Shown here: one piece after another, positions 27,381-64,000 of the stretch
Numbering within the stretch: position 1 is the first letter of the stretch
How the letters are laid out: each line of letters begins with the position of its first letter
Made by a program: the position numbers and the translations under genes
The notes under the pieces: model-generated
What the model saw: only the letters and a program-made list of their open reading frames with translations
Told to the model about the DNA's origin: nothing
Databases searched by the model: none
DNA from: Vitis vinifera
Lineage: Eukaryota; Streptophyta; Magnoliopsida; Vitales; Vitaceae
Length of the DNA stretch: 64,000 bases
NCBI RefSeq assembly: GCF_030704535.1
Contig: NC_081809.1
Coordinates: forward strand, 513,501-577,500
Direction: 5' to 3'

Positions 27381-28669
27381 TAAATTTTATGCTAAAAACT
27401 TTAAAAATAAATGTGTAAGAAAATGTTTAATTTCAAAGTTTTTAAAACTTTAAGATAGAAAATTAACTTGTCATATCAACGTACTAGCCTAAAGTTTGGT
27501 TAAATTTAAATTTTGATGATAATAAAATAATATTTTGATTGAATATTTAATTTTAAGTATGATAATGATGATATATAGTCAAAAGAGGAAAACAAAAGAG
27601 GTTTTATTTATTTATTTATTTATTTTTTAAACTTTTTTACAATATCACATGTATAGAATATATTCTCTTATAAGGCATAGTAGGGACAAGTATGCTTTAA
27701 AATTGACCTTTAGAACATAAGTATTTGGGAATGAAAAATAATCACATTTTTTAAAAGAATTCATTCATATATTATTAATGTTTTTTTGTTAAAAATGAGA
27801 TTGATTACTTCAAAGATAAAAACTTGTGTTTTACATGATTTAAAAGCAAGATTTCCAATCTTAAGTTTCAATTTGAAATAATCCACTATATGTCGTTTAT
27901 CCAATATTTTTCTAAATTTCTTGAATAATTGATTAATTGACCAAAGTGATCGATTGTATTCCTGTCTTCCAATGATTTTTAAAAAAATGTCCAATGACTA
28001 GTTTATAGTCGACTGTATGATTGCTTAATTGATCAAAGTAGTCGATTGTATTCCTGTCTTCCAATGATTATAAAAAAAAATGTCCAACAACTAGTTTCTA
28101 GTCAACTGTGTGATTGTTTGATTGAGCGAAAAATGTGTCTAATAATTAGTGTTTTTACAAAATATGCCTAATAATTAGTCTTTGTACAAAACGATACAAA
28201 TGTGATTATTGGACTTTATTTATGATAGAGACAATAACTTGAAAACTTCATTTATTTAGTTGTCTTGCCTTCTTAAACTCTTTAAATTATAGAAATAATT
28301 AGTTAGAAGGGATGAAATACCCCCTATATTTGTGAATTTATTCCCTCTAATATTTTTATTTGAAGAGTAATTCATTTTTTACATAAATGCTCTTGATTAT
28401 TTGAAGTATTTATAGTATGTTTTAAAAGAAATGATTATTTTTATAAGAAAATAATAAGAGTATTTTTGTTAAAATGAGGTAAAAAAAATGATGAAGGGTT
28501 ATATTTCCAAAATTGGATTTTCAATTACCCTTTTAATTAGATAGCCAAAAATTATATTGAATCCAAACTTGTTTATTTTCTCATTGTGAAGTTATTTCAC
28601 CAGAGTTGTATTCATTCATTACATCTTGTGCTTAAAGGAGCTATTGTACGAGTGGTTAAGGAATCTTAT

Positions 28670-29005
28670 TTAGAAAGTGTTTGTTTTTTTTTAATTTTTT
28701 GTTGAAAATAATTTGTTTTTAGACTTTAAGTTGTTTATTTGTTTTTATTTATTTATTTATTTATTTATTATTATTATTATTTATCTTTTTAGGATTTATT
28801 ATAAATTTTTAGCTAAATAAAAAAATTCAAAATATTTGACTTTTTTTAAATGACAAAAATAGCATGTTGATTTTTCTTTACTTTTTAATATTATATAGAA
28901 ATAAACTGTTATAGAAACAAACAACTTAATACTCGATACTATTAAGTATTATTTAGTTTTAAGTTATATTTAAAATTAAGTGAAAAAGCAAATACCACCT
29001 TAGTG
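28670..29005. mobile_element. Older copy of the GTGTTTGTTT-type MITE
   Basis: The left end AAGTGTTTGTTTTTTTTTAA and the right end AAAAAGCAAATACCACCTTA correspond to the ends of the intact element at 47780-48055, but are diverged. A (TTTA)n(TTA)n tract sits inside at about 28745-28784. Related copies lie at about 36520-36800, 42975-43290, 51123-51405 and 62811-63090, one per unit. Confidence 0.55.
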
Positions 29006-29574
29006 ATTGAAAAAGTCTATTAAAACTTAAAAAATCTCGACATAAAGAATAATAAGGAGAATCATGATTAAGAAAACTTTTAAAATTGTGAAATACATCA
29101 AGTTGTGGAAGTGGATAGGTCGTTGAACCACGATAAAAACGCTTTATTTACAATATCTTTCCCCTTACTTTTTTTTATTTTTCATCACATTCATTCCATT
29201 ACTTGCATATATGGAAACGATTCCTTGAATGTGACTTAATAGAAAACTATTTCTAAGAACAATTCTTAAAAACAATTCTGAGTTGTTTTATGTTTTGAAA
29301 TTCAACTATGAAAATTGTTTTTATTGATTTATTTTTTATGAAAGCATCATGTAATTAAGTATTATGCAAAAGTTTTAAAGTATTCTATATATATTCTCAT
29401 TGCTTCTCAAAACTCTTTACCACCAAAAATACCTAAACCTGCCTCAAATTTATTCTAAAAAATAATATTTTTTTTAAACAATCTATTATTAACCAAAAAA
29501 AAAGTTACCAAATGTGTTTTTAAGTAAGTCCTTATATTTCAATGTTAAAAATTTAATTTTATACAGAAACACAT

Positions 29575-29700
29575 TCAATACTCATTGGGCTCAGACAGCT
29601 GAATCCAGTCCAAAGCCCATCCACTGGTTTAAAATTCAGGCCCATTATATTGTTCATCCTGCCGGGCCTTGCGGTTCAGCCCATCTCAATTGTACCTAAC
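29575..29700. promoter_or_regulatory. Promoter-like cluster of TGGGCY motifs, repeated in every unit
   Basis: It holds TTGGGCTC, AAGCCCATC, AGGCCCATT and CAGCCCATC within about 110 bp. Copies lie at about 37504-37610, 43880-43995, 52125-52240 and 63810-63920. In the 37.5-kb copy it stands directly upstream of the 5' end of a UTP5-like gene, where such motifs are expected. In the other units it abuts the EP-domain pseudogene. Confidence 0.4.
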
Positions 29701-29767
29701 AAAAAGCAAGAGAACAAGTTCCACGAATCTAAATACACAATCTGAAATTGGATTTGGGAAATTCAGA

Positions 29768-30360
29768 CACTGCAAGTATCTATGCCATACCTCTCCATAC
29801 TTCATGAAGCTCCTATAGCAAGTATCTATGACTTCTTCCAACTCTTTCCACCGTTTCATGAAGCTGTTCGGGTGGGGGCCGACACTGCATAGCTTCCAAT
29901 CAGTTCAATTATATAAATAAATCCTCAAACTTAACCAGATCACTCCATGATGATTCTTTCCCTTCAGGAGTAGGTTCTGAGCTCTGAGAGCAATTTGCAT
30001 GAGAAGACAAAGCCCCCTTCTCCTCTTCATTGCATCATTGCTCCAATAGCGTGTAATGTTTAGATCCTCCATTGGTTATGTAGTGTCTTCCACCCTCTCT
30101 GTGGTAGGCAGCAATGTCAAGTGGTTCAACCATCTTTCTATAATTCGTTCCTGTACAGAGCCAGAGGATTTGCAAAGCTGCCCCTTCCTGGTGAGGCTTC
30201 CTCTCTACGTGTTCTACCATGTCTTCCCATCGGTTCCATTTTAATGTCTCTTTTACACCCCAGGTTTCTGAAGCTGTCATAATAACCCATTGTGCTCATC
30301 TTTTGATTTCTTTCTTGTACCGTTCTAGCTGGAACATATCTAGTTTTATGTCAGTCAGAA
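29768..30360 (-). pseudogene. Decayed SAG101 EP-domain exon (unit 1)
   Basis: Reading -, the sequence follows the last exon of SAG101 from LERYKKE through KMVEPLDIAAYHREGG and SWSDLVKFEDL to the C-terminal region. It has in-frame stops (for example after HYTLLEQ and in the LFI*LN stretch) and frame changes, and lacks all lipase-domain exons. It lies about 380 bp downstream of SAG101-1 in the same orientation, so it is a relic of an older tandem copy. It cannot make a SAG101 protein. Confidence 0.85.
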
Positions 30361-30742
30361 GCTTAAAAGGAAATTTTCAATGGGAAGTTGTTGCGAGTTT
30401 TGGTGGAGTTGAATCTAAACAAACATGTTTTTCTTCCCCTTCCCCCCCTTTTTTTTTTTTTGAAGGAAAAGACTCTTTGAAGTCTTATTTGATTTTCTTG
30501 TTTACATTTATTTGTTTAGGATATAAATAAAACACAATTTAATAGAACAACAATGAAAGTGCATCCCAGCAACATCATAATATTCATTTCTTAACAAAAA
30601 AAACTGAGGAAAAGAAGGAAGAAAATAGTGCTGAGAATATGGGCAGCAACCAAGAAAAAGGGAAAAAGGTCACACTCTTTCTAGTTTTATCCATTGAACG
30701 CTCACAAAACAACAAACACAACACACAAACTGGATTGCCCCT

Positions 30743-33003
30743 CTAACCATACTTCATATAGCTACGTTTCTTCATGAAGTTGATCAATGGCGACCCATGG
30801 GAATTACTGCAAGTATCTATGTAGCCCTCATACAGTCCCCACCATTTCATGAAGCTGCTTTCCCTCGAGAAAATCTCAGGGGACGCTGCATAGTTGTTAA
30901 TCTGTTCCATTACATACTCCTCGAACTTAACCAGATTATCCCATGATGATTTTCCCTGCTCAAGAGTACAGTTTTTACTCTTGAGCAATTCGCATGACAA
31001 GATGGCCTCCTCCACATGTGCCCAAAACAAAGAATCCTCAGTTAGGATACCAGACACCTTTTGCTTCTTGGAATCAAGCTTATCTCTAGAGGGGGGTTTC
31101 ACATCTTCTTCATACCATTGCTGCAACAGCTTGTAATGAAGAGATCTTCCATTGTTTATGTAGTCTGTTCCACCCTCTCTGTAGAAGGCAGCAATGTCCA
31201 GTGGTTCAACCATTCTCCTATAAACTGTCCCTGCATAGAGCCAACGGGTTCGAAATGTTGCTCCTTCCTTCTGGGGCTTCCTCTGTACTTGTGCAACCAT
31301 GTCTTCCCAGTACATTGTGAGGTTTCCCCTAAACTGTTCAACGTTGATGTCCCTTTTAGACCCCTGATTTTTGAAGCAATCGTAGTAACCCATTTCCGAT
31401 TTCTTCTTATACCATTCTAGATGGGCCATGTCTCTTTTTATGTCATTCAGTTTCTTGGCATCGGAAGCTTTATTTTTCTGGATTAGGCTTCTGGTTTCAG
31501 CTTCCATTGTTCTTATCATAGCGTTGATATCAATGTTATGCTGCAGCAGCTGCCATGAATTTTAAAAATGAGACGAGTTATGGAAGATCCCAAAGAACAA
31601 GAAGATAAATCTGAATAGGGCAGTTATTGCAGTATTTGGTGAAGTGTAAACCATGTTTCATAACATCATTAGATGGGAGAAAGCTGTTTACCTTTGTTTG
31701 ATTAAATCCAATTGTCTCAAGTTCCATGACGATCCCAGCTGAAAATGGATCTGCAAACCGTTCACCCACCTGCGGCAGTCCCTTGCAGATTGCCCTCTCC
31801 TTGAGGTTTCTTAAAATCTCCCCATAATCAACATCCTGCAATCCTCCGGCAACCTCTGATGATATGACTTTAAGCAATCCCAAAATTAAATCAGGGTTGT
31901 CAAAACAAGCACAACCAAGTTCAGAGCACAAGAGATATGTCCCGAAGGGCTTGTAACCGGTAGTTTGTGAATGGGAGGATGTGGGCGGAGATCTGCCGGA
32001 TGGGAGGAAGAGTCCGGGGACTGGGTCTTGGTTAGACACTACATGCAGGAAGAAAGAATTCCATATGGAGTGTTGGAGGCCAAAGTCGCCTATGAGGGGT
32101 GAACCAAAGGTGATACAAAAGGGGCGGCATTTGGGCTTTAATAAATTGCCATCTAGCAGGCGTAAGGTGAAGAGAGAAGCAACGGATCCTCCCAGGGAGT
32201 ACCCAGTGATGATTAACTGACCTTCAATCTGAGTCAACTGCAAAACAAGTAACCATATGAAATCCATGTCAGAATAATGCCACTAATCTCACTTCTGAAC
32301 ATTCCTTTTTCAGTGACAAGATATATGCAAGCTTATCTAAAGACAGATACCAACACCAGTTCTACTGTATTCCTGTTAAGAGTTGAATCACAACCGATCA
32401 ATGGGTCATGTGACGATGCCATGAAAATGGATATGTGTGACGTCTTATCCTTCAGGTAGTTCGACTCCATGAGGGAGATCTCATGGTCAAGCTGTTTCGT
32501 GTCTCACAATTGTTAACGAAAAGGAAACGAAAATTCAAACAAGTATCAGATTTTGACCTCATCTGTTAGTCCAGAGAGATGATCATGGAGAGGGGTATAG
32601 AGGGTTAATGCTGCTCTGTTAATGGAGACGGACGGGTATTCTTCGGTACGGAGGAAGTCAAAGAGAGGAGACCGATCTAAATCTCCTTGTCCAGGAAGAG
32701 GGTATTGAGTGCAGTCAGGTGAAGAGACAAAAGCTACAATTGTGCACTTGGAAGACAGTTGAAAAAGTCTGTATTGAACAGGCAAGGCTGTTTGGTCTCT
32801 GTTAAGTTCAAGAATTTTGGTCAAAGCACAGTCGATTAGATTGGAGCTCAGCACCAAATTTGCCAGTTCCCGTGCAGAGCTAAACCTGCAGTGAAAGACC
32901 CAACAGAAAAAGGAGAAATTAAGCAAGAACAAAGCGAGGATTCGATTCTAGGAACCAAAAAATGAATCAGAGACATTGATACTTACAAAGGAACTTGATT
33001 CAT
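30743..33003 (-). CDS. SAG101: SAG101-like lipase-like immune regulator, copy 1
   Basis: Exons on -: 33003-32987, 32885-32558, 32237-31692 and 31549-30743, frame continuous, 565 aa (Arabidopsis SAG101 is slightly shorter). The first exon is only 17 nt (MNQVP plus two bases). Residues about 116-297 carry the alpha/beta-hydrolase core: IITGYSLGGSVASLFTLRLL with Ser129 in GxSxG and a NQDPVP Asp at 186. The other two copies have GHSLGG; here His is Tyr. The last exon is the EP (EDS1-PAD4) helical domain with EPLDIA at 412-417. In dicots SAG101 forms a nucleocytoplasmic heterodimer with EDS1 that binds TIR-made nucleotides and engages NRG1-type helper NLRs. Esterase activity is not assured: I cannot place a catalytic His with confidence. 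A TATATAAT on - sits at 33058-33051, about 50 nt before the ATG. Confidence 0.93.
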
Positions 33004-33050
33004 CTTCCTTTCTTCCACGGAGATACAACCAGAACAAGACCAAAAACAAT

Positions 33051-34304: not shown

Positions 34305-34307
<3 letters not shown>

Positions 34308-34352: not shown

Positions 34353-35180
34353 TGTCCTTATTTATTAATTAGGGTTTCAATTATCATAAGTAATAATCAA
34401 TCTTATGTATTGACTTGGGTTTGCTCGTTATTGAGAGTAGTTAGTTGAAAGTCTATGAATTGAATATGAATTGCAGTATATTGGGGAATTCTTGCATTTA
34501 ATGTTGTTAGCAAAACCCCATTTTCATGACTTAGCTACTTCGTTGTCGAAAGAAGAGCATCAATTTACTCCATATGTCCTACTAGGGTTGCTCTTCCATT
34601 GAGAACATAATGTTCATTAACTTTTCTTTAGGTGAAGTCATCATTGATGGTACCAAATGCTCTAACTATTTTTTTTTTTGTCCTTCCTAATTCAAGTATA
34701 GGGTTTATATATTGTGTGTAAGGGTTTTCACATTATGCTAATTGGGTTAACATCTATAGATGCATAATTGATGCTAAGTCCATAAAAATTTATGGTAAAA
34801 AACACCCTTTATCATTCACACTAATTTATTTGCATGTTTTTCTTGATTCTCATTATTTGTTTTTTAAATCAAACCATTAGAAAAATTACTTACCCACATG
34901 TATCAATATCAAATACTATATTTTTACATTTTCACAAAGTATAAGGTATTTGTATTAAATATACAAGATATTTATACTAATTGAATAAGTTTGTCCATTG
35001 TAAATATATTTATATGTTTTTCTTCATTTTTTTAATTTGTTTTTTATATCAAAGTATTGAAAATATTGTTTGTATACAAATATAAATGTTGAATATAATT
35101 TTATTTTATTTTTTTTTTCGTATTTTCACATATAATGTATAAGACATTTATAATAATTATACAATGTTTAATGTGCATAT

Positions 35181-35320
35181 GTTCCATTGGTTATGTTGTT
35201 TCTTACACCATCTTAGTAGTAGGCAACAATGTCAAGTGGTTCAACCATTGCCCCTTCCTTTCGAGGCTTCCTCTCTATCTGTTTGACCATGTCTTTCTAG
35301 TATATTGTATTATGAGGTTT
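35181..35320 (-). pseudogene. Short EP-domain fragment at the unit edge (unit 1)
   Basis: The + text TCCATTGGTTATG...GGCAACAATGTCAAGTGGTT and GTTTGACCATGTCTTTC follow the EP exon of SAG101 (compare 31150-31320) with an internal deletion and stops. It is the third EP-derived sequence per unit and ends about 20 bp before the next unit begins at 35341. Coding sense is -. Confidence 0.7.
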
Positions 35321-35340
35321 TTCCTTAAAAGCTTTAATTT

Positions 35341-37664
35341 TAAATTTTATGCTAAAAACTTTAAAAATAAATGTGTAAGAAAATGTTTAATTTCAAAAGT
35401 TTTTAAAACTTTAAGATAGAAAATTAACTTGTCATATCAACATACTAGCCTAAAGTTTGGTTAAATCTAAATTTTGATGATAGTAAAATAATATTTTGAT
35501 TAAATATTTAATTTTAAGTATAATAATGATATCCAATCAAAAGAGGAAAACAAGAGAGGTTTTTTTTATTTTTTATTTTTTATTTTTTATTTTTTTTATT
35601 TACACTTTTTTACAAAATCATATGTATAGAATAGATTTTCTTGTAAGGCATAGTAAGGATAAGTATGCTTTAAAATTGACCTTTAGAACCTAAGTATTTG
35701 GGAATGAAAAATAATCACATTTTTTATAAGATTTTTTAAAAGAATTCATTAATGTATTATTAATGATTTTTTGTGAAAAATGAATTGATTACTTCAAAGA
35801 TAAAAACTTGTGTTTTACATGATTTTTCAACATTAAAAGCACGATTTCTGATCTTAAGTTTCAATTTGAAATAATTCGTTATATATATATATATCTTTTA
35901 TCCAATATTTTTTTAAATTTCTTAAATAATTGATTAATTGACCAAAGTAATCGATTGTATTCATGTCTTCCAATTATTATAAAAAAAAATGTCTAACGAC
36001 TAGTTTATTGTCAACTGTATAATTGCTTAATTGATCAAAGTAGTCGATTGTATTCCTGTCTTCCATTGATTATAAAAAAAAAAGTCCAATAATTAGTCTT
36101 TGTCTAGCCTTCTTAAACTCTTAAAATTATAGAAATAATTAGTTAAAAGAGATGAAATACCCATATTTGTGAATTTATTCCCTCCAATATTTTTATTTGA
36201 AGAGTAATTCATTTTTTTTTACATAAAAACCTTGGGCTATTTGAAGTATTTATAGTGTGTTTTAAAAGGAATGATTATTTTTATAGGAAAATAATAAGAG
36301 CTTTTTTTTGTTAAAATGAGGTAAAAAAATGACGAAGGGTTATATTTCCAAAATTGGGTTTTCAATGACCATTTTAATTAGATAACCCAAAATTATATTG
36401 AATCCAAACTTGTTTATCTTCTCATTGTGAGCACTTTAGTCATTTCACCAGAGTTGTATTCATTTATTACATTTTGTGCTTAAAGAAGCCATTGTACAAG
36501 TGGCTAAGGAATCTTATTTAGAAAGTGTTTGTTTTTTTAAATTTTTGTTGAAAACAATCTGTTTTACACTTTAAATTGTTTGCTTTTTTTTTTTTATTAT
36601 AAATTTTTAGCTTAAAAAAAAGGCAAAATATTTGTCTTTTTTTAAATGAAAAAAATAACATATTGATTTTTCTTTACTTTTTAATATTATATAAAAATAA
36701 AATGTTATAAAAAAAAACAACCTAATACTTGATATTATTAAATATTATTTAGTTTTAACTTATATTTAGAATTAAGTGAAAAAATAAACACCATCTTAGT
36801 GATTGTAAAAGTCTATTGAAACTTAAGAAATCCGGACTTAAAAAATAATAAGGAGAATCATGATTAAGAAAACTTTTAAAATTGTGAAATATGTCAAGGT
36901 GTGGAAGTGGATTGGTCATTGAACCACAATAAAAACACTTTATTTACAACATTTCTCCCCTTACTTTTTTCTATTTTTCATCACATTCATTCCATTACTT
37001 GCATATATAAAGAGATCATCACCTAATTTACTCATTTATTGGATGATTATCCAAATTTGTTAATTAGATTAACTTTAGTCTTTATACTCCCTTTATGCAA
37101 GGATGAAACATAGAAAAATAAAAGATAAAAGCTTCCTTGATTGTGACTTAATAGAAAACTATTTTTAAGAACAATGCTTAAAAACAGTTTTGAGTTGTTT
37201 TATGTTTCGCAATTCAAATATGAAAATTGTTTTTATCGATTTATTTTTCATGAAAGCCTCGTGTAAGTAAGTATCTTATGCAAAAGTTTTTAAAGTATTC
37301 TATATATTTTCTATTGCTTCTCAAAACTCTTTACCACAAAAAATACCTAAACATGCCTCAAATTTATTCTAAAAAATAATATATTTTTAATTTTTTCTTA
37401 AAGTCCATTATTAACCAAAAAAAAAAGTTACCAAATGTGTTTTTAAGTAAGTCCTCATATTTCAATGTTAAAAGTTTAATTTTATACAGAAACACATTCA
37501 ATACTCATTGGGCTCAGACAGCTGAATCCAGTATAAAGCCCATTCATAGGTTTAAAATTCAGGCCCATTAATGTTGTTCATCCTGGCGGGCTTTTCGGTT
37601 CAGCCCATCTCAATTGTACCTAACAAAAAGCCCCAAAACAGGTTCCACAAATCTAAATACACTC
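35341..37664. repeat. Truncated array unit (1b)
   Basis: Matches 27381-29735 (spacer, MITE, TGGGCY cluster) and stops at about 37664, just before the EP pseudogene would begin. From there the sequence is that of a UTP5-like 5' region. No gene is seen inside. Confidence 0.75.
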
Positions 37665-37738
37665 AAATATGGAGGCTAAAATGAAAAATCCTAAAATTGA
37701 AAAAAAAGAAAAAGAAATAAAAAAGGGGCCCTTGCGAA

Positions 37739-38802
37739 ATGAGCAGCTACGCGGCTGCGTTCCTAAAACCCCACTCTCGTTCTCTCTTTTTCTTTGCTTC
37801 TAGCCGCTGCCGGTCGCCAAAACAGGTAAAACCCCTCTCTCGTTCTCTCTTTTTCTTTGCATCTCGCCGCCGCCGGTCGCCAAAACAGGTAAGCGTGCAT
37901 CTTCTCCTCAAAACAAGTTTATCCTCTGTTTGGTTGCCGAAAAACGGAGGAAAATTAGTATAATGATGCACGACGGTCCCTTATTGGAACTGCTATATAA
38001 TATTTTCTAAGAGAACCGGAAATTCAGCCTGAGCCGGATCGGTAATTGCTCAGGATTTAGTTCTGTTGATTTTTCGTTTGCTTTTTATGGAGAACAACTG
38101 AAAATACCTGGTTTTAGTTTTCTTTTTATTTTTTATTTTATTTTCCTCTAGTTTGTCCGTAGACAAACCGGGAAGCTGAGAAAATGCAGGAAAGTAAAAT
38201 AGATAAAATCTTGAATTTTCGTTATTCAGGCTAAGAAAGCTAAAACTGCTGTTCAGCCAAGTTTAACTGAATTGTTTGGCTTGATTCAGTAACAGATAGC
38301 ATGATATTGCATTTTTTTCCTCCTTCTCTTCCATTTTCTCGGCTACCAAACAAAGGTTATTAGAGCTTAAGTGCTGAATCAGTTTAGTTAATGAAATGAT
38401 TTACTGGATTGGCAACATATTGGCGAGCTTTAAAATTTTTAATGCTGTGTCTTTCTTATATATTTTTTTATATCTTCTTCATCATATGTTTCAGAGGATT
38501 GCCACCTTTTTTTGGCACTTCCTACTGTGATTTTGAGCTATATTATTTTCGTCATGGTAAGTTGTTTTGTTTCTTTATCAATAGGCAGTTACAGTCAATC
38601 TCCCTTAATAACGTCTTGGAACACCTCTCGTATATCTACAATTTCATTTCTAATTTGTAAATTATGAATTGTAAGGACTTTGACATTTAATTTATTCTTT
38701 TGATACAGGACCATGGGCCCATCGAATATCCGAGATTTATTAACAACCTTTACCCCTTCTTTGGACTTCTTTGCTATCAGTTCTGGAGATGGACGAATTA
38801 AG
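37739..38802 (+). pseudogene. 5' end of a WDR43/UTP5-like WD40 gene (leader plus first coding exon), truncated
   Basis: A GC-richer leader segment (about 37740-37888) ends in CAAAACAG before GTAAGCG. It contains a ~53-bp direct duplication, of which the first copy also ends in CAAAACAG before GTAAAAC. After an intron, acceptor AG at 38707-38708 precedes ATG 38713 and one 30-codon exon (38713-38802) reading MGPSNIRDLLTTFTPSLDFF and AISSGDGRIK, then GT. This matches the conserved start of plant WDR43/UTP5 proteins, U3 snoRNP (t-UTP) subunits for 18S pre-rRNA. No further exon follows: at about 39214 the sequence switches to GH28 intron 5. The fragment may still be transcribed from its own promoter, and splicing to the GH28 exon would shift the frame and stop after a few codons. 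Confidence 0.7.
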
Positions 38803-39278
38803 GTACTTGAAACTTGGTTGTTGAAGAGGCTAGGAATTAAGAATGGAGGTGAAGGAATCTGAGGCATTTGAACTTATTTTCATACCGTCAGTCTCCAAGA
38901 GTGATAATAGATAATTTAATGTTTTGTTTTTCACTTGTTTAACAATAATTTTGTAGGTTTTGGTCTGTTTCTTTTTACTAAATTTGATAAACTTTTGGAT
39001 CTTTAATTATCAGTGCTAGAATTGTTTTGTCTTTGTTTATTGTTTGAACCCTCTTCCGATTGGTAAGATATTTCTGAAAATCTATATTAGTTTTTAATGT
39101 ATATATGAATGTTTAAGTATATTGATAGGGATATTTGTTGAAAGAGGAAACAGGTTGTTACCTGTGGTTTGTTTAGTGGTTCATGTAGATTATAATTTTA
39201 CTTTTTTCTATGTTCAGGAAGGGTTCAGTCATGAAAAGAATTTTGCTAAGTCAACTTTGTATAATGTTTTGATTTCAG

Positions 39279-39955
39279 ATTCTTCAGATAGCACCTGCAT
39301 AGAGGATTGCAGCATTGCCATGGGCCATGATGCCATTGCACTCAAGAGTGGCTGGGATGAATATGGCATTGCCTATGGTAGACCCACCACAAATGTACAC
39401 ATCAGACGGGTCAACCTTCAATCATCATCTGGCTCTTCCCTGGCCTTCGGTAGTGAGATGTCTGGTGGCATTTCTAACGTCTGTGTGGAGCAGGTCCACC
39501 TATACAACTCATTCAGTGGCATCGAGTTCAGAACTACCAAGGGAAGAGGTGGTTATATCCAAGAAATCATCATATCAGATGTCGCAATGGAAAACATCCA
39601 CACAGCCTTCAGTGCAACAGGCCAAATCGGCTCCCACCCAGATGACCATTTTGACCCCAATGCACTCCCTGTCTTGGATCACATCACCTTGCAGAATGTG
39701 ATCGGCACAAACATAACCATTGCTGGAAGCTTCACTGGTATTCAAGAATCCCCGTTCACTTCCATTTGTCTATCCAACATCTCCCTATCAACTACTCCTC
39801 CTGCCTCCATCTCTTGGGTTTGCTCAAATGTCTCTGGGTTCTCCCAATGGGTGTTCCCTGAACCATGCCCAAGCCTTGAGAGCTCATTACTGAACTCATC
39901 TTCAACCTGTCTCTCCCGCCTGAATTCTTCTCCCACTCAGACTGCAGTCTTATGA
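39279..39955 (+). pseudogene. Orphan copy of GH28 exon 6
   Basis: Only the last exon (with its acceptor TTTCAG) is present; signal peptide and exons 1-5 are missing. An open frame from 39122 runs through it but its first ~50 residues are intron sequence. Against exon 6 of the intact gene I count five base differences over 677 nt, all synonymous third positions, so the 225 encoded residues (226 with the split Asp codon) are identical. On its own the piece lacks the N-terminal half of the beta-helix and should not fold as a GH28 protein. Confidence 0.85.
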
Positions 39956-40586
39956 TGCCATTCTTCCATTTTTCTTCAAGCCCCAATCCTAGATTCTTTC
40001 CAATAAGACCCTGTCTAGAATATTTGTTTCCCCATTTCCCCCATTTGCATTCTTGCATGTTGTCATCCGCAGATTATATATGTACAGCCTCATTTCTTCA
40101 TTCATGTGTAAGGAAAAGTTTTGGTAGTGATTGCACAGAGGATTCTGAGATGTTAGTAGTGTTGCTCTTTGAATTTCTTTATTTCTATATTTACATTTTG
40201 CTGAGTTGTTATTTCATTGTAAACCCTTTTCAGTGAATATTGAGTAGATATGGAATGGAATTTCTAGTGAAATGTGAATTGGAATAAAGTGTTTCAGTTG
40301 TCAAAGTGCACAGATAGACTGGATGAGTTGGAATCAGATTTGGCCTTTTTTGTTGTTGGAAAACTGGTGTCTTTCACCATTGATTTGTTTCAGGCTTTCA
40401 GCTTCCCATCTCCACTGACATAATGATGGTACTTTTGAAAGTTCATGGTATAATGATTATTATTTTATTTTAAAATGAAATAAAGAGAAAAAAGACTGAA
40501 ATATTTGGATTTTGGGTACACTCCAACAAATATGACAATATTCATTGAAAAGGATCCACTTCAGGTCTTGTAAATGTGAGATTTTG

Positions 40587-40847
40587 AAGTGTTTGGTAAA
40601 TCAAGTCAATGATTTAAAGTGAGTTATTGACTTAATTTATATCCATCTCTGTTTTTATTTATTTTAAATATAGTTTTAGATTTAACTAAGAATGAGTTAA
40701 TTATTTTAATTTAATATTTAAAATTAACTTATCTTTACTTAAATCTAAAATTATATTTATAAAAAAATTTATTTGAAAACTTTAAATTAATATAAATTAA
40801 ATTATTAAATCATTTTAAGTTATTAAATTGATTTATCAAATACCCTA
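40587..40847. mobile_element. MITE, duplicate of the element at 26303-26562
   Basis: Same ends (AAGTGTTTGGTAAATC and GATTTATCAAATACCC) at the corresponding place in the duplicated GH28 3' segment. Confidence 0.6.
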
Positions 40848-49745: not shown

Positions 49746-49888
49746 TTCCATTGGTTATGTTGTTTCTTACACCATCTTAGTAGTAGGCAACAATGTCAAG
49801 TGGTTCAACCATTGCCCCTTCCTTTTGAGGCTTCGTCTCTATTTGTTTGACCATGTCTTTCTAGTATATTATATTATGAGGTTTTCCT
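49746..49888 (-). pseudogene. Short EP-domain fragment at the unit edge (unit 2)
   Basis: Counterpart of 35181-35320 with the same deletion structure. It abuts the start of unit 3. Confidence 0.7.
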
Positions 49889-52311
49889 TTAAAAGCTTCA
49901 ATTTTAAATTTTATGCTAAAAACTTTAAAAATAAATGTGTAAGAAAATGTTTAATTTCAAAAGTTTTTAAAACTTTAAGATAGAAAATTAACTTGTCGTA
50001 TCAACATACTAGCCTAAAGTTTGGTTAAATCTAAATTTTGATGATAGTAAAATAATATTTTGATTAAATATTTAATTTTAAGTATGATAATGATATCCAA
50101 TCAAAAGAGGAAAACAAGAGAGGTTTTTTTTCTTTTTTTCTTTTTTATTTACAGTTTTTTACAAGATCATATGTATAGAATAGATTTTCTTGTAAGGCAT
50201 AGTAAGGATAAGTATGCTTTAAAATTGACCTTTAGAACCTAAATATTTGGGAATGAAAAATAATCACATTTTTTATAAGATTTTTTTAAAAGAATTCATT
50301 CATGTATTATTAATGATTTTTTGTGAAAAATGAAATTGATTACTTCAAAGATAAAAACTTGTGTTTTACATGATTTTTCAACATTAAAAGTAAGATTTAT
50401 GATCTTAAGTTTCAATTTGAAATAATCCGTTATATATATCTTTTATCCAATATTTTTCTAAATTTCTTGAATAATTGATTAATTGACCAAAGTAATCGAT
50501 TGTATTCATGTCTTCCAATTATTATAAAAAAAAATGTCTAAAGACTAGTTTATAGTCAACTGAATGATTGCTTAATTGACCAAAGTAGTCGATTGTATTC
50601 TTGTCTTCCACTTATTATAAAAAAAAAAAGTCCAATAATTAGTGTTTAGTCAACTGTGTGATTGCTTGATTGAGCAAAAAATGTGTCTAATAACTAGTGT
50701 TTTTACAAAATGTGCCTAATAATTAGTCTTTGTCTAGCCTTCTTAAACTCTTAAAATTATAGAAATAATTATTTAAAAGGGATGAAATACCTCATATTTG
50801 TGAATTTATTCCCTCCAATATTTTTATTTGAAGAGTAATTCATTTTTTTTTACATAAAAGCCCTTGGCTATTTGGAGTATTTATAGTGTGTTTTAAAAGA
50901 AATGATTATTTTTATAAGAAAATAATAAGAGCATTTTTGTTAACACGAGATAAAAAAATGATGAAGGGTTATATTTCTAAAATTGGGTTTTCAATGACCC
51001 TTTTAATTAGATAACCCAAAATTATATTGAATCAAAACTTGTTTATCTTTTCATTGTGAGCACTTCAATACATTTTGTGCTTAAAGGAGCTATTGAACGA
51101 GTGGTTAAGGAATTTTATTTAGAAGGTGTTTGTTTTTTTTTAAATTTTTATTGAAAACAATCTATTTTTACACTTTAAGTTGTTTGTTTGTTTGTTTGTT
51201 TTTTATTTTTTATTATAAATTTTTAGCTTAAAAAAAAGTCAAAATATTTGACTTTTTTTAAATGAAAAAAATAATATATTGATTTTTCTTTACTTTTTAA
51301 TATTATATAGAAATAAAATGTTATAAAAAAAACAACCTAATCCTGATATTATTAAATATTATTTAGTTTTAAGTTATATTTAGAATTAAGTGAAAAAACA
51401 AACACTATCTTAGTGATTGTAAAAGTCTATTGAAACATAAGAAATCCGGACTTAAAGAATAATAAAGAGAATCATGATTAAGAAAACTTTTAAAATTGTG
51501 AAATATGTCAAGGTGCGGAAGTGGATAGGTCGTTGAACTACAATAAAAACACTTTATTTACAACATTTCTCCCCTTACTTTTTTATTTTATTTTTCATCA
51601 CATTCATTCCATTACTTGCATATATAAAGAGATCATCACCTAATTTACTCTTTTATCGGATGATTATCTATATTTGTTAATTAGATTAACTTATGTCTTT
51701 GTACTCCATTTATGCAAGGATGAAACATAGAAAAATAAAAGATAAAAGCATCCTTGAATGTGACTTAATAGAAAACTATTTTTAAGAACAATTTTTAAAA
51801 ACAGTTCTGAGTTGTTTTATGTTTCGAAATTTAAATATGAGAATTGTTTTTATCAATTTATTTTTCATGAAAGCCTCGTGTAAGTATCTTACTTATGCAA
51901 AAGTTTTTAAAGTATTCTGTATATTTCCCATTGCTTCTCAAAACTCTTTACCACGAAAAATACCTAAACATGCCTCAAATTTATCCTAAAAAATTATATA
52001 TTTTTAATTTTTTTTTAAATCTATTATTAACCATAAAAAAAAAAAAGTTACCAAATGTGTTTTTAAGTAAGTCCTTATATTTCAATGTTAAAAATTTAAT
52101 TTTATACAGAAATACATTCAATACTCATTGGGCTCAGACAGCTGAATCCAGTACAAAGCCCATCCGCTGGTTTAAAATTCAGGCCCATTATATTGTTCAT
52201 CCTGGCGGGCCTTTCGGTTCAGCCCATCTCAATTGTACCTAACAAAAAGCAAGAAAACAAGTTCCACGAATCTAAATACACAATCTGAAATTGGATTTGG
52301 GAAATTCAGAG

Positions 52312-52892
52312 ACTGCAAGTATCTATGCCACACCTCTCCATACTTCATGAAGCTCCTATAGCAAGTATCTATGACTTCTTCCAACTCTTTCCACCGTTTC
52401 ATGAAGCTGCTCGGGCGGGGGCCGACACTGCATAGCTTCCAATCAGTTCAATTATATAAATAAATCCTCAAACTTAACCAGATCACTCAATGATGATTCT
52501 TTCCCTTCAGGAGTAGGTTCTGAGCTCTGAGAGCAATTTGCATGAGAAGACAAAGCCCCCTTCTCCTCTTCATTGCATCATTGCTCCAATAGCGTGTAAT
52601 GTTATGTAGTGTCTTCCACCCTCTCTGTGGTAGGGAACAATGTCAAGTGGTTCAACCATCTTTCTATAATTCGTTCCTGTACAGAGCCAGAGGGTTTGCA
52701 AAGCTGCCCCTTCCTGGTGAGGCTTCCTCTCTACGTGTTCTACCATGTCTTCCCATCGGTTCCATTTTAATGTCTCTTTTACACCCCAGGTTTCTAAAGC
52801 TGTCATAATAACCCACTGTACTCATCTTTTGATTTCTTTCTTGTACCATTCTAGCTGGAACATATCTGGTTTTATATCATTCAGAAGCTTAA
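52312..52892 (-). pseudogene. Decayed SAG101 EP-domain exon (unit 3)
   Basis: Counterpart of 29768-30360 with a further small deletion: after GREGGRHYIT-type sequence the ITNGGSKHY stretch is lost (around 52601). No lipase exons. The reading frame is broken. Confidence 0.85.
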
Positions 52893-53257: not shown

Positions 53258-55520
53258 CTAACCATACTTCATATAGCTACGTTTCTTCATGAAGTTGATC
53301 AATGGCGACCCATGGGAATTACTGCAAGTATCTATGTAGCCCTCATACAGTCCCCACCATTTCATGAAGCTGCTTTCCCTCGAGAAAATCTCAGGGGACG
53401 CTGCATAGTTGTTAATATGTTCCATTACATACTCCTCGAACTTAACCAGATTATCCCATGATGATTTTCCCTGCTCAAGAGTACAGTTTTGACTCTTGAG
53501 CAATTCGCATGACAAGATGGCCTCCTCCACATGTGCCCAAAACAAAGAATCCTCAGTTAGGATACCAGACACCTTTTGCTTCTTGGAATCAAGCTTATCT
53601 CTAGAGGGGGGTTTCACATCTTCTTCATACCATTGCTGCAACAGCTTGTAATGAAGAGATCTTCCATTGTTTATGTAGTCTGTTCCACCCTCTCTGTAGA
53701 AGGCAGCAATGTCCAGTGGTTCAACCATTCTCCTATAAACTGTCCCTGCATAGAACCAACGGGTTCGAAATGTTGCTCCTTCCTTCTGGGGCTTCCTCTG
53801 TACTTGTGCAACCATGTCTTCCCAGTACATTGTGAGGTTTCCCCTAAATTGTTCAACGTTGATGTCCCTTTTAGACCCCTGATTTTTGAAGCAATCGTAG
53901 TAACCCATTTCCGATTTCTTCTTATACCATTCTAGATGGGCCATGTCTCTTTTTATGTCATTCAGTTTCTTGGCATCGGAAGCTTTATTTTTCTGGATTA
54001 GGCTTCTGGTTTCCGCTTCCATTGTTCTTATCATAGCGTTGATATCAATGTTATGCTGCAGCAACTGCCATGAATTTTAAAAATGAGACTAGTTATGGAA
54101 GATCCCAAAGAACAAGAAGATAAATCTGAATAGGGCAGTTATTGCAGTATTTGGTGTAGTGTAAACCATGTTTCATAACATCATTAGATGGGAGAAAGCT
54201 GTTTACCTTTGTTTGATTAAATCCAATTGTCTCAAGTTCCATGATGATCCCAGCTGAAAATGGATCTGCAAACCGTTCACCCACCTGCGGCAGTCCCTTG
54301 CAGATTGCCCTCTCCTTGAGGTTTCTTAAAATCTCCCCATAGTCAACATCCTGCAATCCTCCGGCAACCTCTGATGATATGACTTTAAGCAATCCCAAAA
54401 TTAAATCAGGGTTGTCAAAACAAGCACAACCAAGTTCAGAGCACAAGAGATATGTCCCAAAGGGCTTGTAACCGGTAGTTTGTGAATGGGAGGATGTGGG
54501 CGGAGATCTGCCGGATGGGAGGAAGAGTCCGGGGACTGGGTCTTGGTTAGACACTACATGCAGGAAGAAAGAATTCCATATGGAGTGTTGGAGGCCAAAG
54601 TCGCCTATGAGGGGTGAACCAAAGGTGATACAAAAGGGGCGGCATTTGGGTTTTAATAAATTGCCATCTAGCAGGCGTAAGGTGAAGAGAGAAGCAACGG
54701 ATCCTCCCAGGGAGTGCCCAGTGATGATTAACTGACCTTCAATCTGAGTCAACTGCAAAACAAGTAACCATATGAAATCCATGTCAGAATAATGCCACTA
54801 ATCTCACTTCTGAACATTCCTTTTTCAGTGACAAGATATATGCAAGCTTATCTAAAGACAGATATACCAACACCAGTTCTACTGTGTTCCTATTAAGAGT
54901 TGAATCACAACCGATCAATGGGTCATGTGACGATGCCATGAAAATGGATATGTGTGACGTCTTATCCTTCAGGTAGTTCGACTCCATGAGGGAGATCTCA
55001 TGGTCAAGCTGTTTCGTGTCTCACAATTGTTAACGAAAAGGAAACGAAAATTCAAACAAGTATCAGATTTTGACCTCATCTGTTAGTCCAGAGAGATGAT
55101 CATGGAGAGGGGTATAGAGGGCTAATGCTGCTCTGTTAATGGAGACGGACGGGTATTCTTCGGTACGGAGGAAGTCAAAGAGAGGAGACCGATCTAAATC
55201 TCCTTGTCCAGGAAGAGGGTATTGAGTGCAGTCAGGTGAAGAGACAAAAGCTACAATTGTGCACTTGGAAGACAGTTGATAAAGTCTGTATTGAACAGGC
55301 AAGGCTGTTTGGCCTCTCTTAAGTTCAAGAATTTTGGTGAAAGCACAGTCGATTAGATTGGAGCTCAGCACCAAATTTGCCAGTTCCCGTGCAGAGCTAA
55401 ACCTGCAGTGAAAGACCCAACAGAAAAAGGAGAAATTAAGCAAGAACAGAGCGAGGATTCGATTCTAGGAACCAAAAAATGAATCAGAGACATTGATACT
55501 TACAAAGGAACTTGATTCAT
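53258..55520 (-). CDS. SAG101: SAG101-like lipase-like immune regulator, copy 3
   Basis: Exons on -: 55520-55504, 55402-55075, 54752-54207 and 54064-53258, 565 aa, frame intact. Motifs: GHSLGGSVASLF (Ser129), NQDPVP, EP-domain EPLDIA (412-417). Exons 3-4 are nearly those of copy 1 (few changes such as RWFYAG for RWLYAG and EHINN for EQINN), while much of exon 2 is like copy 2 (AFTKILELKRGQ, YRLYQL), so the gene looks mosaic. Role as for copy 1. The proximal core promoter differs: where copies 1 and 2 have TATATAAT, this has CAAATAAT on - at 55575-55568, so expression may be weaker or start elsewhere. Confidence 0.93.
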
Positions 55521-56933: not shown

Positions 56934-57750
56934 TTATTAATTATGGTTTCAATTATCATAAGTAATAATCAATCTTATGTATTGACTTGGGTTTGCTCGT
57001 TATTGAGAGTAGTTAGTTGAAAGTCTATGAATTGAATATGAATTGCAGTATATTGGGGAATTCTTGCATTTAATGTTGTTAGCAAAACCCCATTTTCATG
57101 ACTTAGCTACTTCGTTGTCGAAAGAAGAGCATCAATTTACTCCATATGTCCTACTAGGGTTGCTCTTCCATTGAGAACATAATGTTCATTAACTTTTCTT
57201 TAGGTGAAGTCATCATTGATGGTACCAAATGCTCTAACTATTTTTTTTTTGTCCTTCCTAATTCAAGTATAGGGTTTATATATTGTGTGTAAGGGTTTTC
57301 ACATTATGCTAATTGGGTTAACATCTATAGATGCATAATTGATGCTAAGTCCATGAAAATTTATGGTAAAAAAACATCCTTTATCATTCACACTAATTTA
57401 TTTGCATGTATTTCTTGATTCTCATTATTTTTTTTTTAAATCAAACCATTAGAAAAATTACTTACCCACATTTATAAATATCAAATACTATATTTTTACA
57501 TTTTCACAAAGTATAAGGTATTTGTATTAAATATACAAGATATTTATACTAATTGAATAAGTTTGTCCATTGAAAATATATTTATATGCTTTTCTTCATT
57601 TTTTTATTTGTTTTTTTATATCAAACTATCGAAAATATTGTTTGTATACAAATATAAATGTTGAATATAATTTTATTTATTTATTTCGTATTTTCACACA
57701 TAATGTATAAGACATTTATAATAATTGTACAATGTTTAATGTGCATATGT

Positions 57751-57892
57751 TCCATTGGTTATGTTGTTTCTTACACCATCTTAGTAGTAGGCAACAATGT
57801 CAAGTGGTTCAACCATTGCCCCTTCCTTTTGAGGCTTCGTCTCTATTTGTTTGACCATGTCTTTCTAGTATATTATATTATGAGGTTTTCCC
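57751..57892 (-). pseudogene. Short EP-domain fragment at the unit edge (unit 3)
   Basis: Counterpart of 35181-35320, next to the start of unit 4. Confidence 0.7.
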
Positions 57893-59026
57893 TTAAAAGC
57901 TTCAATTTTAAATTTTATGCTAAAAAACTTTAAAAATAAATGTGTAAGAAAATGTTTAATTTCAAAAGTTTTTAAAACTTTAAGATAGAAAATTAACTTA
58001 TCGTATCAACATACTAGCCTAAAGTTTGGTTAAATCTAAATTTTGATGATAGTAAAATAATATTTTAATTAAATATTTAATTTTAGGTATGGTAATGATA
58101 TCCAGTCAAAAGAGGAAAACAAGAGAGGCTTTTTTTTTTCTTTTTATTTTATTTTATTTTTTTATTTACATTTTTTTACAAGATCATATGTATAGAATAG
58201 ATTTTCTTGTAAGGCATAGTAAGGATAAGTATGCTTTAAAATTGATCTTTAGAACCTAAGTATTTGGGAATGAAAAATAATCACATTTTTTATAAGATTT
58301 TTTAAAAGAATTCATTCATGCATTATTAATGATTTTTTGTGAAAAATGAAATTGATTACTTCAAAGATAAAAACTTGTGTTTTACATGATTTTTCAACAT
58401 TAAAAGTAAGATTTATAATCTTAAGTTTCAATTTGAAATAATCCGTTATATATATCTTTTATCCAATATTTTTCTAAATTTCTTGAATAATTGATTAATT
58501 AATCAAAGTAATCGATTGTATTCATGTCTTCCAATTATTATAAAAAAAAAAATCTAAAGATTAGTTTATAGTCAACTGAATGATTGTTTAATTGACCAAA
58601 GTAGTCGATTGTATTCTTGTCTTTCACTTATTATAAAAAAAAAAAAAAAAAAGTCCAATAATTAGTGTCTAGTCAACTCCGTGATTGATTGATTGAGCGA
58701 AAAATGTGTCTAATAACTAGTGTTTTTACAAAATGTGCCTAATAATTAGTCTTTGTCTAGCCTTCTTAAACTCTTAAAATTATAGAAATAATTAGATAAA
58801 AGGGATGAAATACCTCATATTTGTTAATTTATTCCCTCCAATATTTTTATTTAAAGAGTAATTCATTTTTTTATACATAAAAGCCCCTGACTATTTGGAG
58901 TATTTATAGTGTGTTTTAAAAGAAATGATTATTTTTATAAGAAAATAATAAGAGCATTTTTGTTAACATGAGATAAAAAAAATGATGAAGGGTTATATTT
59001 CTAAAATTGGGTTTTCAATGACCTTT

Positions 59027-62000
59027 TGTGGACCCCGCATTTCGGCTCATGCGTTTCCCACTCAATGGCGGACTCGATTTTTATTTGAAAATTTGATTTT
59101 TTATTGTTTAAGAAAATGACTTGGAGTCGCCACTTATTTTTGTTTTATTTTTAAAAGGGTAAACAAAATAAGAAAGAAAAACCCTAAGTGTGACTCCTTA
59201 CTTTGGAAAAGGTGGTCTGTGAAAAACCGGATCGGGTCCGAGGGTCAGGTTACTTATCAGGAAGGTACGGTATGAACCGTAGCACCCCTCTAAGTCCCTA
59301 AATGGGTCTCTACTAATAAAATGAAGCAATCATGGCAATTGATGAGGAAAAACAATGAATACCCGGAACTATCATGCACATAGGAGAATCAAAACATGTA
59401 TATGGAAATATCAGAATGGGGATAGATACGTACCTGGGTGACGAGCCACAATGCGCTTATCAAAAAGTGAGGTTAGTGCACAATTAAAGGATAATTTCGG
59501 GCATGCCATAGAGCAGAATAAAATCAAGCACGCATGGCAATTAAATCAATCAAACAATCAATCAATCATGAGGAAAGCACGTATGTTGGGCCCCCACCAA
59601 AGCCCATTCATTTTTGCAGGAATTAATATCACAAATCCCATTATTCTGGAATTATGAAAATAGCATTCATGTTTATATAAAATCAAGAGAAATCGAAGAT
59701 TATTTGAAACCCGAAGAGAATTAAAACTGTTAGAGAGAAAATTGAATTTTTGAAATTTATTTGGAAATTGGAGTCTCGAAAATTATTTGAAGATTGGAGT
59801 CTTGAGAATTAAATTTAAGAGTTGGAATTTTGGGATGTCAAACTTGAAGGAAATTAGAATTTTAGAAATTGGAAATTAAGTTCGAAAATTGGGATTCAAA
59901 AAAATGTTTAAAAATGAAATTTTGAAGTAAATAAATGGACTAATAATAATAAGGACGAAAATAATGATTAAATAAATGAATGGAATGCTGGAATTTTTGA
60001 AATTGGAAATTAGATTTAGAAGTTAGAAAGTTTAAAGAATTGTTTAAAATAGAATTTTAAGATAAATAAACAAACTATTAGTGATTAAATTAATGTGAAT
60101 ATGGGAATTTTCAAGATTAGGAATTTAATTTGTAAATCTGAAGTTTTAAAGAGTTGATTTAAAATGGAGATAAAATACTAATGATTAAATAAATTAATGA
60201 GAACATGAGAATTTTTGGGATTAGGAGTTTAATTCGGAAATCAGAAGTTTTAGAGAATTTGATTTAAAATGGAGTTTTGAAATAAATAAATAAATAAAAT
60301 ATCAATGATCAAATAATTTAGTGCGAACATGAGAATTTTTGGGATTAGGAATTTAATTCGAGAATCAGAAGTTTTAGAGAATTTGATTTGAAATGGGGTT
60401 TTGAAATAAATAATCAAAATAACAATAATTAAATAGATTAAAGTGAGTATGAGAATTTTCGGAAATCGAAATTGAGTTTTAAAGATCGGAATTTTGGAGT
60501 ATCATTTGAAGGTTGAATTTTTATAAATTGGGCTTGGAAATTGGAAGTTAGAAAGTTTGAATTAATAATAATAATAAGGTTTTGAAAGTTTTAATCAATG
60601 ATAATAATAAAAATAAGATTTTGAAAGTTGAGGTAATAATAACAATAATGATGAGATTTTTGAAAGCTTGGATTAATGATGATAATAATAATAAATAAAT
60701 TTTGAAAGTTGAGTTAATTATAATAATAATGATGAGATCTTGGAGGTTTGGACTGATGATAATAATAAATAATAATAAATAGGTGTTGAAAGTTTGAATT
60801 AATAATAATGATAATGATGAGATTTTGGAGGTTGGGTTTAATGATAAGGATAACAATAATAAATAGATTTTGAAATTTGGATTAATGATAATAATAAATA
60901 ATAATAAATAAATAGATTTTGAAATTTGGGTTAGTAATAATAATTATAGGGTTTTGAAAGTTTGGATTAATGATAGTGATAATAATAATATTTTAAATGT
61001 TGAATTAATAATAATAATGATAATAATATTTTAAATGTTGAATAGAAATAATAATAATGATAAACGTAATAATAATAATAGTAATAATAAGATTTTTAAA
61101 AGTTTGATTAATAACAATGATAATAATAGTATTTTAAATGTTGAATTAATAATAATAATAGAGCCCAAACCCAGTCCATCAGCAACCCTAATAAAGCCCA
61201 AACCTAGTCAAGCCCAAATCCACCAATAAGCCCCATCCTCATCAAGCCCAATCCATATGATATTAATGGGCAAGCCCAAGGCAATTAAAGCCTTCATAAA
61301 CCTGGGCTTCTCTTCATAGGCTTGGGCCTGGGTTCCCAGTTCAAACCCAAGCCCAAAAACCATCATGGGCAAAGCTTCTCTTCACCAATTGCCTCTCCAC
61401 CCGCGAAGACTCCACCGGCGGCACGATGAAGAGGAGAGCCATGGCGGCGCGGGGAAAAGAGGAGCAGCGGCGGCGCGGGGAAGAGGGGAGCCGTGGCGGC
61501 GGTCTGGTGACGTTCAGAAGGTGCCGCCGCCATGGCTGCTGGTGCAGGCGCGCGCGTTGCCGGAGCAGGTGGCAGCGGCCTGGCGACGTCCAGAAGGCGC
61601 TGCCGCCATTGGTGGCTGGTGCAGGCGCGCACATAGCCGGTGCAGGAAGACGCGGGGAGGGGCGGCATGCATGGCTCCCATGCAAGTAGGCGAACGGCTT
61701 TGAGGTTCCTATGGGGGTGAGCTAGGCGCGGGCATGGCGGGGTGCAGGTATGAGGGTTAGGTGTTGTGTTGAGGAGTTTGGAAGGATGAGAATATAGGAA
61801 TAGTAGTGAGGGATCGTATGCATGAGATGGACGAAGCATAACCACGGCTGGCGAGAGGAAAATGGGTTAGTGATGAACTAGATATGACGATGGGTGTGAT
61901 GGATAGGTGAGGAAGGTACGGGAAAGGTGAAAAATGGGTATGGAGATATGTATTTGACTGAGGATGGTGTAATCATGGAAGTGTAGCCGTGATGAGTGAA

Positions 62001-62683
62001 TGAGAAAGATGAGATGGGTGCATAGAAGGTGATCCGTTCACGAAGTCACTTCCCCAGTTTCGATAACCTGGCCATCGATGACCTCATTCCCACAACCAAC
62101 AAGGAATAGAGCAACAAACAGAGGGAAGAAACCACAGGGAACAAAGCATGATTTTTATATAATCGGGCTCAGGGATGAATTCATACATTCAGGTGCTTAT
62201 GGAAGGAGTTAGGGAAACCAGAATAGAGTCAAACAGAGCACCTCCGCACACGGATAAATTCAGCAAAAATAAACCAATAATCCATGACATCCAAACCGAC
62301 CAACAAATCACATCCTGGAATCAACAAAAGAAGTGAGCACAATAATGTCATAACGAAGAAACATGGAGTTCACAGAAAATTTTACCTGAAAGTTTTCTCC
62401 TTGAGCAAGGTATCCCCCCCGTCCTCCAACACTTTTTTTCCTGCCTTTCTTTCGCTTCCTTCCCCTGTTTTGAGTCTTCCTCCACAAGCCATCCCCCGTA
62501 CACCATCCCATCTGCCGCCCAAAAAAAAAAAAAAACGCCCACTTGAGTCCCCTCTCTGCCCCAAAAACCAGCCCACTTTAGTCCCATCATGTCGAGCGGC
62601 TTGGGAAGAAAAAGGTAGGAAAAATTAAAAATAAACAAATAATAATAATAACTAAAAAAACTGTCTGCCTCCGGGGGTCTACA
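59027..62683. mobile_element. Solo LTR or similar LTR-derived insertion, 3657 bp
   Basis: Ends TGTGGACCCC and GGGGGTCTACA give TG...CA termini in a short inverted repeat. CCTTT stands on both sides (59022-59026 and 62684-62688). Removing the element and one CCTTT restores a spacer that matches the uninterrupted units. A TG...CA element with a 5-bp target duplication is the mark of an LTR retrotransposon. No gag, protease, reverse transcriptase or integrase is visible and no second LTR, so a solo LTR with an unusually long LTR is likeliest (long LTRs are known in the Tat/Ogre lineage). Inside are GGAGTCGCCACT with a later AGTGTGACTCC, an AAT-rich tract (about 60560-61165), a TGGGCY-rich stretch and a GC-rich island (about 61360-61760). 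A non-autonomous element is the alternative. Confidence 0.75.
60560..61165. repeat. AAT/ATA-rich imperfect repeat tract within the LTR-like insertion
   Basis: Repeated blocks of (AAT)n, GATTTTGAAAGTTTGGATTA-type sequence and ATGATAATAATAA. The Ile/Leu-rich frame on - (60548-60856) is a by-product. Confidence 0.8.
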
Positions 62684-64000
62684 CCTTTTTAATTAGATAA
62701 CCCAAAATTATATTAAATCCAAACTTGTTTATCTTTTCATTGTGAGCGCTTCAATACATTTTGTGCTTAAAGAAGCTATTGTACGAGTGGTTAAGGAATT
62801 TTATTTATAAGGTGTTTATTTTTTAAAATTTTTATTGAAAACAATCTGTTTTTACACTTCAAGTTGTTTGTTTGTTTGTTTATTTTTTATTTTTTATTAT
62901 AAATTTTTAGCTTAAAAAAAAGTCAAAATATTTGACTTTTTTTAAATAAAAAAAAAACATACTGATTTTTCTTTACTTTTTAATATTATATAGAAATAAA
63001 ATGTTATAAAAAAAACAACCTAATACTTGATATTATTAAATATTATTTAGTTTTAACTTATATTTAGAATTAAGTGAAAAAACAAACGTCATCTTAGTGA
63101 TTGTAAAAGTCTATTGAAACTTAAGAAATCCAGACTTAAAGAACAATAAGGAGAATCATGATTAAAAAAACTTTTAAAATTGTGAAATATGTCAAGGTGT
63201 GGAAGTGGATAGGTCGTTGAACCACAATAAAAACATTTTATTTACAACATTTCTCCCCTTACTTTTTTATTTTATTTTTTTATCACATTCATTCCATTAC
63301 TTGCATATATAAAGAGATCATCACCTAATTTACTCATTTATCGGATGATTATCTATATTTGTTAATTAGATTAACTTACGACTTTGTACTCCATTTATGC
63401 AAGGATGAAACATAGAAAAATAAAAGATAAAAGCATCCTTGAATGTGAGTTAATAGAAAACTATTTTTAAGAACAGTTTTTAAAAACAGTTCTAAGTTGT
63501 TTTATGTTTTGAAATTCAAATATAAAAATTGTTTTTATCGATTTATTTTTCATAAAAGCCTCGTGTAAGTATCTTACTTATGCAAAAGTTTTTAAAGTAT
63601 TCTGTATATTTCTCATTGCTTCTCAAAACTCTTTACCACAAAAAATACCTAAACATGCCTCAAATTTATTCTAAAAAAATTATATATTTTTAATTTTTTT
63701 TAAAAAAATTTATTATTAACCAAAAAAAAAAAAAGTTACCAAATGTGTTTTTAAGTAAGTCCTTATATTTCAATGTTAAAAATTTAATTTTATACAGAAA
63801 CACATTCAATACTCATTGGGCTCAGACAGCTGAATCCAGTACAAAACCCATCCACTGGTTTAAAATTCAGGCCCATTATATTGTTCATCCTGGCGGGCCT
63901 TTCGGTTCAGCCCATCTCAATTGTACCTAACAAAAAGCCCGAAAACAAGTTCCACGAATCTAAAAACACAATCTGAAATTGGATTTGGGAAATTCAGAGA

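Follow-up and report, generated by a model that had tools for sequence, protein, structure and literature searches.

Genes for plant immune sensors often lie in tandem clusters, and SAG101 is a common signalling partner for many of these receptors. In clusters of NLR genes, tandem duplication is known to go along with fragmentary pseudogenes and with recombination from unit to unit. In Arabidopsis, SAG101 has been reported to form a heterodimer with EDS1 and to recruit NRG1 (PMC8185089, in its accessible part). More than one SAG101 gene per species has been described: the accessible part of PMC12069366 reports three in soybean (GmSAG101a, b and c), of which a and c are close neighbours on Chr13 with one gene between them, and likewise several in alfalfa, where most of the family belongs to the SAG101 subfamily, while Nicotiana benthamiana has SAG101a and SAG101b (PMC8185089, same part). 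SAG101 multiplicity, which the preliminary description of the present locus had set against the single gene of Arabidopsis, is therefore not exceptional; multi-copy, locally duplicated SAG101 is already known, and tandem arrays commonly change by unequal exchange, a standard mechanism. The locus is particular in having a compound unit that includes relics, together with a recombinant unit that has its breakpoint next to the stop codon of its gene, and neither a compound unit with relics nor a recombinant gene is described for soybean or alfalfa in the accessible part of PMC12069366. The architecture resembles that of NLR clusters, except that the amplified gene is a signalling partner and not a sensor. 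A recombining SAG101 cluster would serve as a natural test of whether changes in dosage or diversification of a signalling partner are tolerated.

We analysed a stretch of 64,000 nucleotides (the window), which is plant DNA because it encodes proteins with the EP domain, a domain that defines a plant-specific family (PMC9806590, in its accessible part). Self-BLAST of the window revealed long direct repeats in its right-hand 39 kb, pairing 24931-33473 with 39216-47777 (98.0% identity), 29222-36083 with 51751-58644 (95.3%) and 43517-47777 with 51751-55991 (96.6%), and none of five first-order Markov shuffles of the window gave a repeat at E<1e-10. A self dot-plot had been proposed as a check on the tandem arrangement of SAG101 genes, and these repeats, together with three intact gene models, bear that arrangement out. 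The order on the plus strand is a GH28 block (g1), spacer a1, unit A, spacer a2, a foreign segment (x), a second GH28 block (g2), spacer a3, unit B, spacer a4, unit C, spacer a5 and the window edge. The array starts at 24931, at the duplicated tail of the GH28 gene, and not at 27381 as first described. Well to its left, open frames on the minus strand at 8546-10663 appear to resemble a protein of the Pumilio type, although Pfam gave no match for the two ORFs tested there. The proposed unit length of about 8 kb suits genes B and C, which are 8.2 kb apart, but not A and B, at 14.3 kb. The copies are head-to-tail paralogues with common flanks and with mosaic relationships between the units, and we consider it quite probable that they form a genuine tandem SAG101 array, built stepwise by unequal recombination, whose proteins act like SAG101.

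All three genes lie on the minus strand and have four exons each: copy A at 30743..33003 (565 aa; exons 33003-32987, 32885-32558, 32237-31692 and 31549-30743), copy B at 45043..47306 (566 aa, the most diverged of the three) and copy C at 53258..55520 (565 aa). In each of the three gene models the introns measure 101, 320-322 and 142 bp, the splice sites are GT/AG and the frames are open throughout, which confirms the earlier claim of three complete SAG101-type genes with intact four-exon frames. There are 10 residue differences between copies A and C and 31 between A and B, and B is one residue longer at its C terminus.

The full Pfam and PDB scans were run on copy C, and the exon-4 frame of copy A was compared with PDB. 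Copy C matched EDS1_EP (PF18117; 4e-70; 236 bits, with the cut-off at 23.1) and, for the N-terminal lipase-like domain, Lipase_3 (3e-17). Its best PDB relative was SAG101 (1e-72), ahead of PAD4 (2e-43), the best EDS1 chain (8zf0, 8e-29) and the next EDS1 match (9e-21), in support of the identity proposed at the outset; the copy A frame matched SAG101 at 7e-48. By these scores copy C stands nearer to SAG101 than to either PAD4 or EDS1, and we refer to all three copies as SAG101-type. The best match, Arabidopsis SAG101 (4NFU chain B and 7XJP chain B), has the same order of lipase-like and EP domains, covered by two aligned stretches; unlike it, the present locus holds at least three tandem copies plus relics. 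At the GxSxG motif, copy A reads GYSLGG and copies B and C read GHSLGG, whereas the aligned stretch of Arabidopsis SAG101 reads GAALGG. The accessible part of PMC12069366 states that the Ser-Asp-His triad is not conserved in SAG101, in contrast to EDS1 and PAD4. Here A, B and C all retain the serine of the motif (GxSLGG), and the triad histidine can be placed only tentatively.

Each gene is flanked by two decayed EP-domain copies in its own orientation, EP1 downstream and EP2 upstream, which were located by tblastn and alignment. The EP1 relics, also on the minus strand, lie at 29794..30364 (A), 44099..44663 (B) and about 52351..52890 (C, with a private 17-bp deletion), and the EP2 relics, likewise on the minus strand, at 35150..35308 (A), 49735..49902 (B) and 57739..57906 (C). 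In the aligned pieces, the EP1 relics are 94-97% identical to one another and 69-76% identical to intact exon 4. Between exon-4 positions 100 and 745 they share seven indel runs common to all three, one further run being private to C, and the B relic has an additional private one-base gap just outside these positions. What can still be recognised as EP in EP2 amounts to about 130 bases, in two pieces separated by a common 45-bp deletion. Since these lesions are common to the units, the decay is older than the multiplication of the unit, and both the two decayed copies per unit and the order of decay before amplification stand as first described. A tblastn search at E up to 1e-3 revealed no EP2 ahead of either the 27.4-kb or the 41.7-kb spacer. 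A search for lipase-domain remains with copy C as query (E up to 10) returned, besides the intact genes, one match at chance level (E 5.6), and the relics are therefore EP-only as far as visible.

The spacers between these elements were delimited by self-BLAST and compared with one another: a1 at 27373..29767, a2 at 35333..37662, a3 at 41661..44072, a4 at 49901..52312 and a5 at 57905..64000, the last interrupted by a 3.66-kb insert. The pair a1-a3 differs by 1.05% and the other nine pairs by 3.5-8.8%, and the spacer tree has two internal branches with support of 1.000 and 0.997. Distances ranging from 1.05 to 8.8% along supported branches do not look like the product of one assembly error repeated. 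Individual units also carry private insertions. The region 35333-37662, earlier called a truncated unit, is really a spacer that stops about 56 bases before the expected EP1 start; foreign DNA follows it and abuts the GH28 copy at 39216. At the right edge, the window runs 31 bases beyond the point where a2 breaks off, matching a1, a3 and a4, and ends about 26 bases short of the expected EP1 start. A fourth unit cut by the edge had been proposed; its spacer is present and such a unit likely lies beyond the edge, but no fourth gene or relic is visible within the window.

The left part of the array repeats a stretch of a GH28 gene. Block g1 (24931..27373) comprises the 3' part of this gene (the end of an intron and the last exon, to about 25.67 kb) and its flank, and block g2 (39216..41661) is a second copy that holds, of GH28, the intron end and last exon only; the two differ at 17 of 2411 aligned bases (0.7%). 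Of four pieces of the gene itself (22.9-25.67 kb) that were tested, three hit models for GH28 or pectin-lyase-like proteins. At 24760-24960, in the GH28 intron where the larger duplication begins, short tandem repeats with a period of about 42 bp were seen by eye. Joined to g2 at 39216 is segment x (37663..39215), for which self-BLAST found no second copy in the window. By eye it has an apparent promoter and, at about 38.7-38.8 kb, an apparent first coding exon (MGPSNIRDLL...); the latter seems to resemble a WD40 protein of the WDR43/UTP5 type, but the exon had no PDB match, and the ORF containing it no Pfam match. The join carries a short common motif, TTCAGG / GGAAGGGTTCA (by eye), and probably represents the breakpoint of a larger tandem duplication. 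Across 38700-39955, the x exon and the truncated GH28 frame were seen by eye to be in phase if the CAG at about 39215-39217 acts as acceptor, and a chimeric x-GH28 transcript is possible.

The same join could instead mark two haplotypes assembled end to end, the left one reading GH28-a1-A-a2-x and the right one g2-a3-B-a4-C-a5; in that case B and C, at the least, would make up the true haploid array, and A would be either an allele of B or C or an allele with a rearrangement. Distances of 0.7% between g1 and g2 and of 1.05% between a1 and a3 do resemble heterozygosity, and the join does connect the unrelated x with the middle of a GH28 intron. We regard a misjoin as unlikely, however, given that the window contains no N bases, that a short motif common to both sides of the join fits a true breakpoint, and that in the gene itself A is nearer to C than to B. 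Moreover, divergence between B and C per 250-bp window amounts to 0.8-3.6% inside the gene and reaches 13% beyond it, and the two carry different insertions; they are therefore not one locus assembled twice, and would remain tandem paralogues even if 39216 were a haplotype misjoin. Judged by their left blocks, which are about 1% apart, A and B appear less secure as paralogues than B and C: the A/B left block includes an exact match of 960 bp, and its similarity is within the range of haplotype differences. The amplification had also been called active-looking, which suits best this left part of the A/B duplication (about 1% divergence); elsewhere, gene bodies diverge by 0.4-4% per 250-bp window and the spacer pairs other than a1-a3 by 3.5-8.8%.

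Within the tandem array that we favour, unit A appears to be recombinant: it resembles B as far as about 30.6 kb and C throughout the gene. We compared the 228 sites at which A matches exactly one of B and C by a maximum chi-square test with 5000 permutations. The best split fell at 30605-30754, adjoining the stop codon at 30743, with 37 sites where A equals B against 4 where A equals C to its left, and 82 against 105 to its right. Within 30721-32950 the counts were 9 and 39. The maximum chi-square of 29.0 was reached in none of the 5000 permutations (largest permuted value 21.3), although the permutation ignores the linkage of neighbouring sites and somewhat overstates the strength of the recombination signal. 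In line with the split, of the 12 windows of 500 bp across 24960-30959, 11 show a difference of 0.2-1.6% between A and B and one shows 2.6%; in the next five windows the difference is 1.8-3.2%. To the right of the gene the sites are mixed, with A=B against A=C at 45 to 31 and then 28 to 35, and the history there is therefore more complex than a single exchange. The mosaic of unit A between B-like and C-like parts counts among the signs of later recombination in the array.

Coding divergence among the three genes is indistinguishable from neutral and gives no evidence for new specificity. Whole-gene dN/dS was 1.15 for A-B, 0.47 for A-C and 0.74 for B-C (Fisher p 0.86, 0.13 and 0.34); no pair differs from 1, and positive selection was not supported. 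The maximum-likelihood estimate for A-B (dN 0.032, dS 0.013) appears higher, but few synonymous changes underlie it. Behind the A-B ratio are 37 nonsynonymous and 9 synonymous changes, which would also fit a copy B drifting towards loss of function, leaving two working genes in the array. We find this doubtful: the divergence test has little power, and B keeps its frame and splice sites intact, with no truncation, even though its exon-4 changes appear mostly derived by comparison with the relics and an insert lies upstream of it. This MITE-like insert of 279 bp (47776..48054) is absent from A and C, sits about 470 bp upstream of gene B and has terminal inverted repeats of about 20 bp (by eye).

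The comparison with the relics was made at the listed sites where B varies in exon 4. EP1 agreed with A/C at 9 of 14 sites, with B at 2 and with neither at 3, and EP2 agreed with A/C at 10 of 16, with B at 3 and with neither at 3. The relics are a weak outgroup, and some listed sites lie outside the homologous relic alignment; a recount at homologous sites only gave 9, 1 and 1 of 11 for EP1 and 5, 2 and 2 of 9 for EP2 (A/C, B and neither). Where the relics can be scored, the exon-4 changes of B thus seem mostly derived. The relics find no support as the main donor of gene conversion into B, as they match A/C more often than B. Both homologous sites at which EP2 matches B are 7 bases apart, and B may contain a tiny EP2-derived tract.

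The changes in B cluster in the EP exon and include the two-base codon changes G424K, G431K and K558D, and exon 4 shows 21 nonsynonymous against 4 synonymous differences between A and B. Such clustered replacements are what one would see if B had been selected for a changed EP surface with a new partner preference. We consider this quite unlikely, because neither the exon-4 pN/pS of A-B (1.26) nor that of B-C (0.93) departs from 1 (p about 0.8), and an unseen copy could also have clustered the changes through gene conversion. In addition, the AlphaFold prediction of the EP structure, made for the B exon with an alignment of A and C, reached a pLDDT of 49, too poor for placing the residues.

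Upstream of genes A and B, 55 bases from the start codon, stands a TATA-like TATATAA motif, which is altered to CAAATAA in C (within 55520-55640). W-box-like hexamers within 1.5 kb number, as raw counts, two in A, one in B, where the stretch includes the 279-bp insert, and four in C. The copies probably diverge more in how they are expressed than in how they work, and C would be expressed at a lower level than A or be regulated differently.

In the order of events that we infer, early SAG101 duplicates would first have decayed to the EP1 and EP2 relics, and the compound unit EP2-spacer-EP1-SAG101 would then have been amplified by unequal crossing-over. A larger duplication, with breakpoints in the GH28 intron and in x, would next have copied the left flank and the first unit or units, and an exchange with its breakpoint at 30605-30754 would finally have produced unit A, with its left part from a B-like unit and its gene from a C-like one. 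To the right of 64000 this model would place at least one further EP1 relic, probably a gene, and at last a spacer close to a2 with the whole gene behind it whose first part is in x. The encoded proteins would pair with EDS1 and recruit NRG1 helper receptors after TIR signalling, as SAG101 does. Beyond this, we consider it very unlikely that the array acts as a recombining reservoir of several EDS1-SAG101 modules differing in dosage or helper choice. Were it so, distinct promoters and a changed EP surface in B would diversify the modules, and a breakpoint beside the stop codon would shuffle genes between regulatory contexts.

By eye, the insertion that interrupts a5 (59027..62683) has TG...CA ends, and CCTTT is its likely target duplication of 5 bp. 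Neither of the two ORFs tested in it had a Pfam match. Its interior is repeat-rich, with long TAA-rich tandem repeats at 60-61.2 kb and GC-rich repeats at 61.4-61.65 kb.
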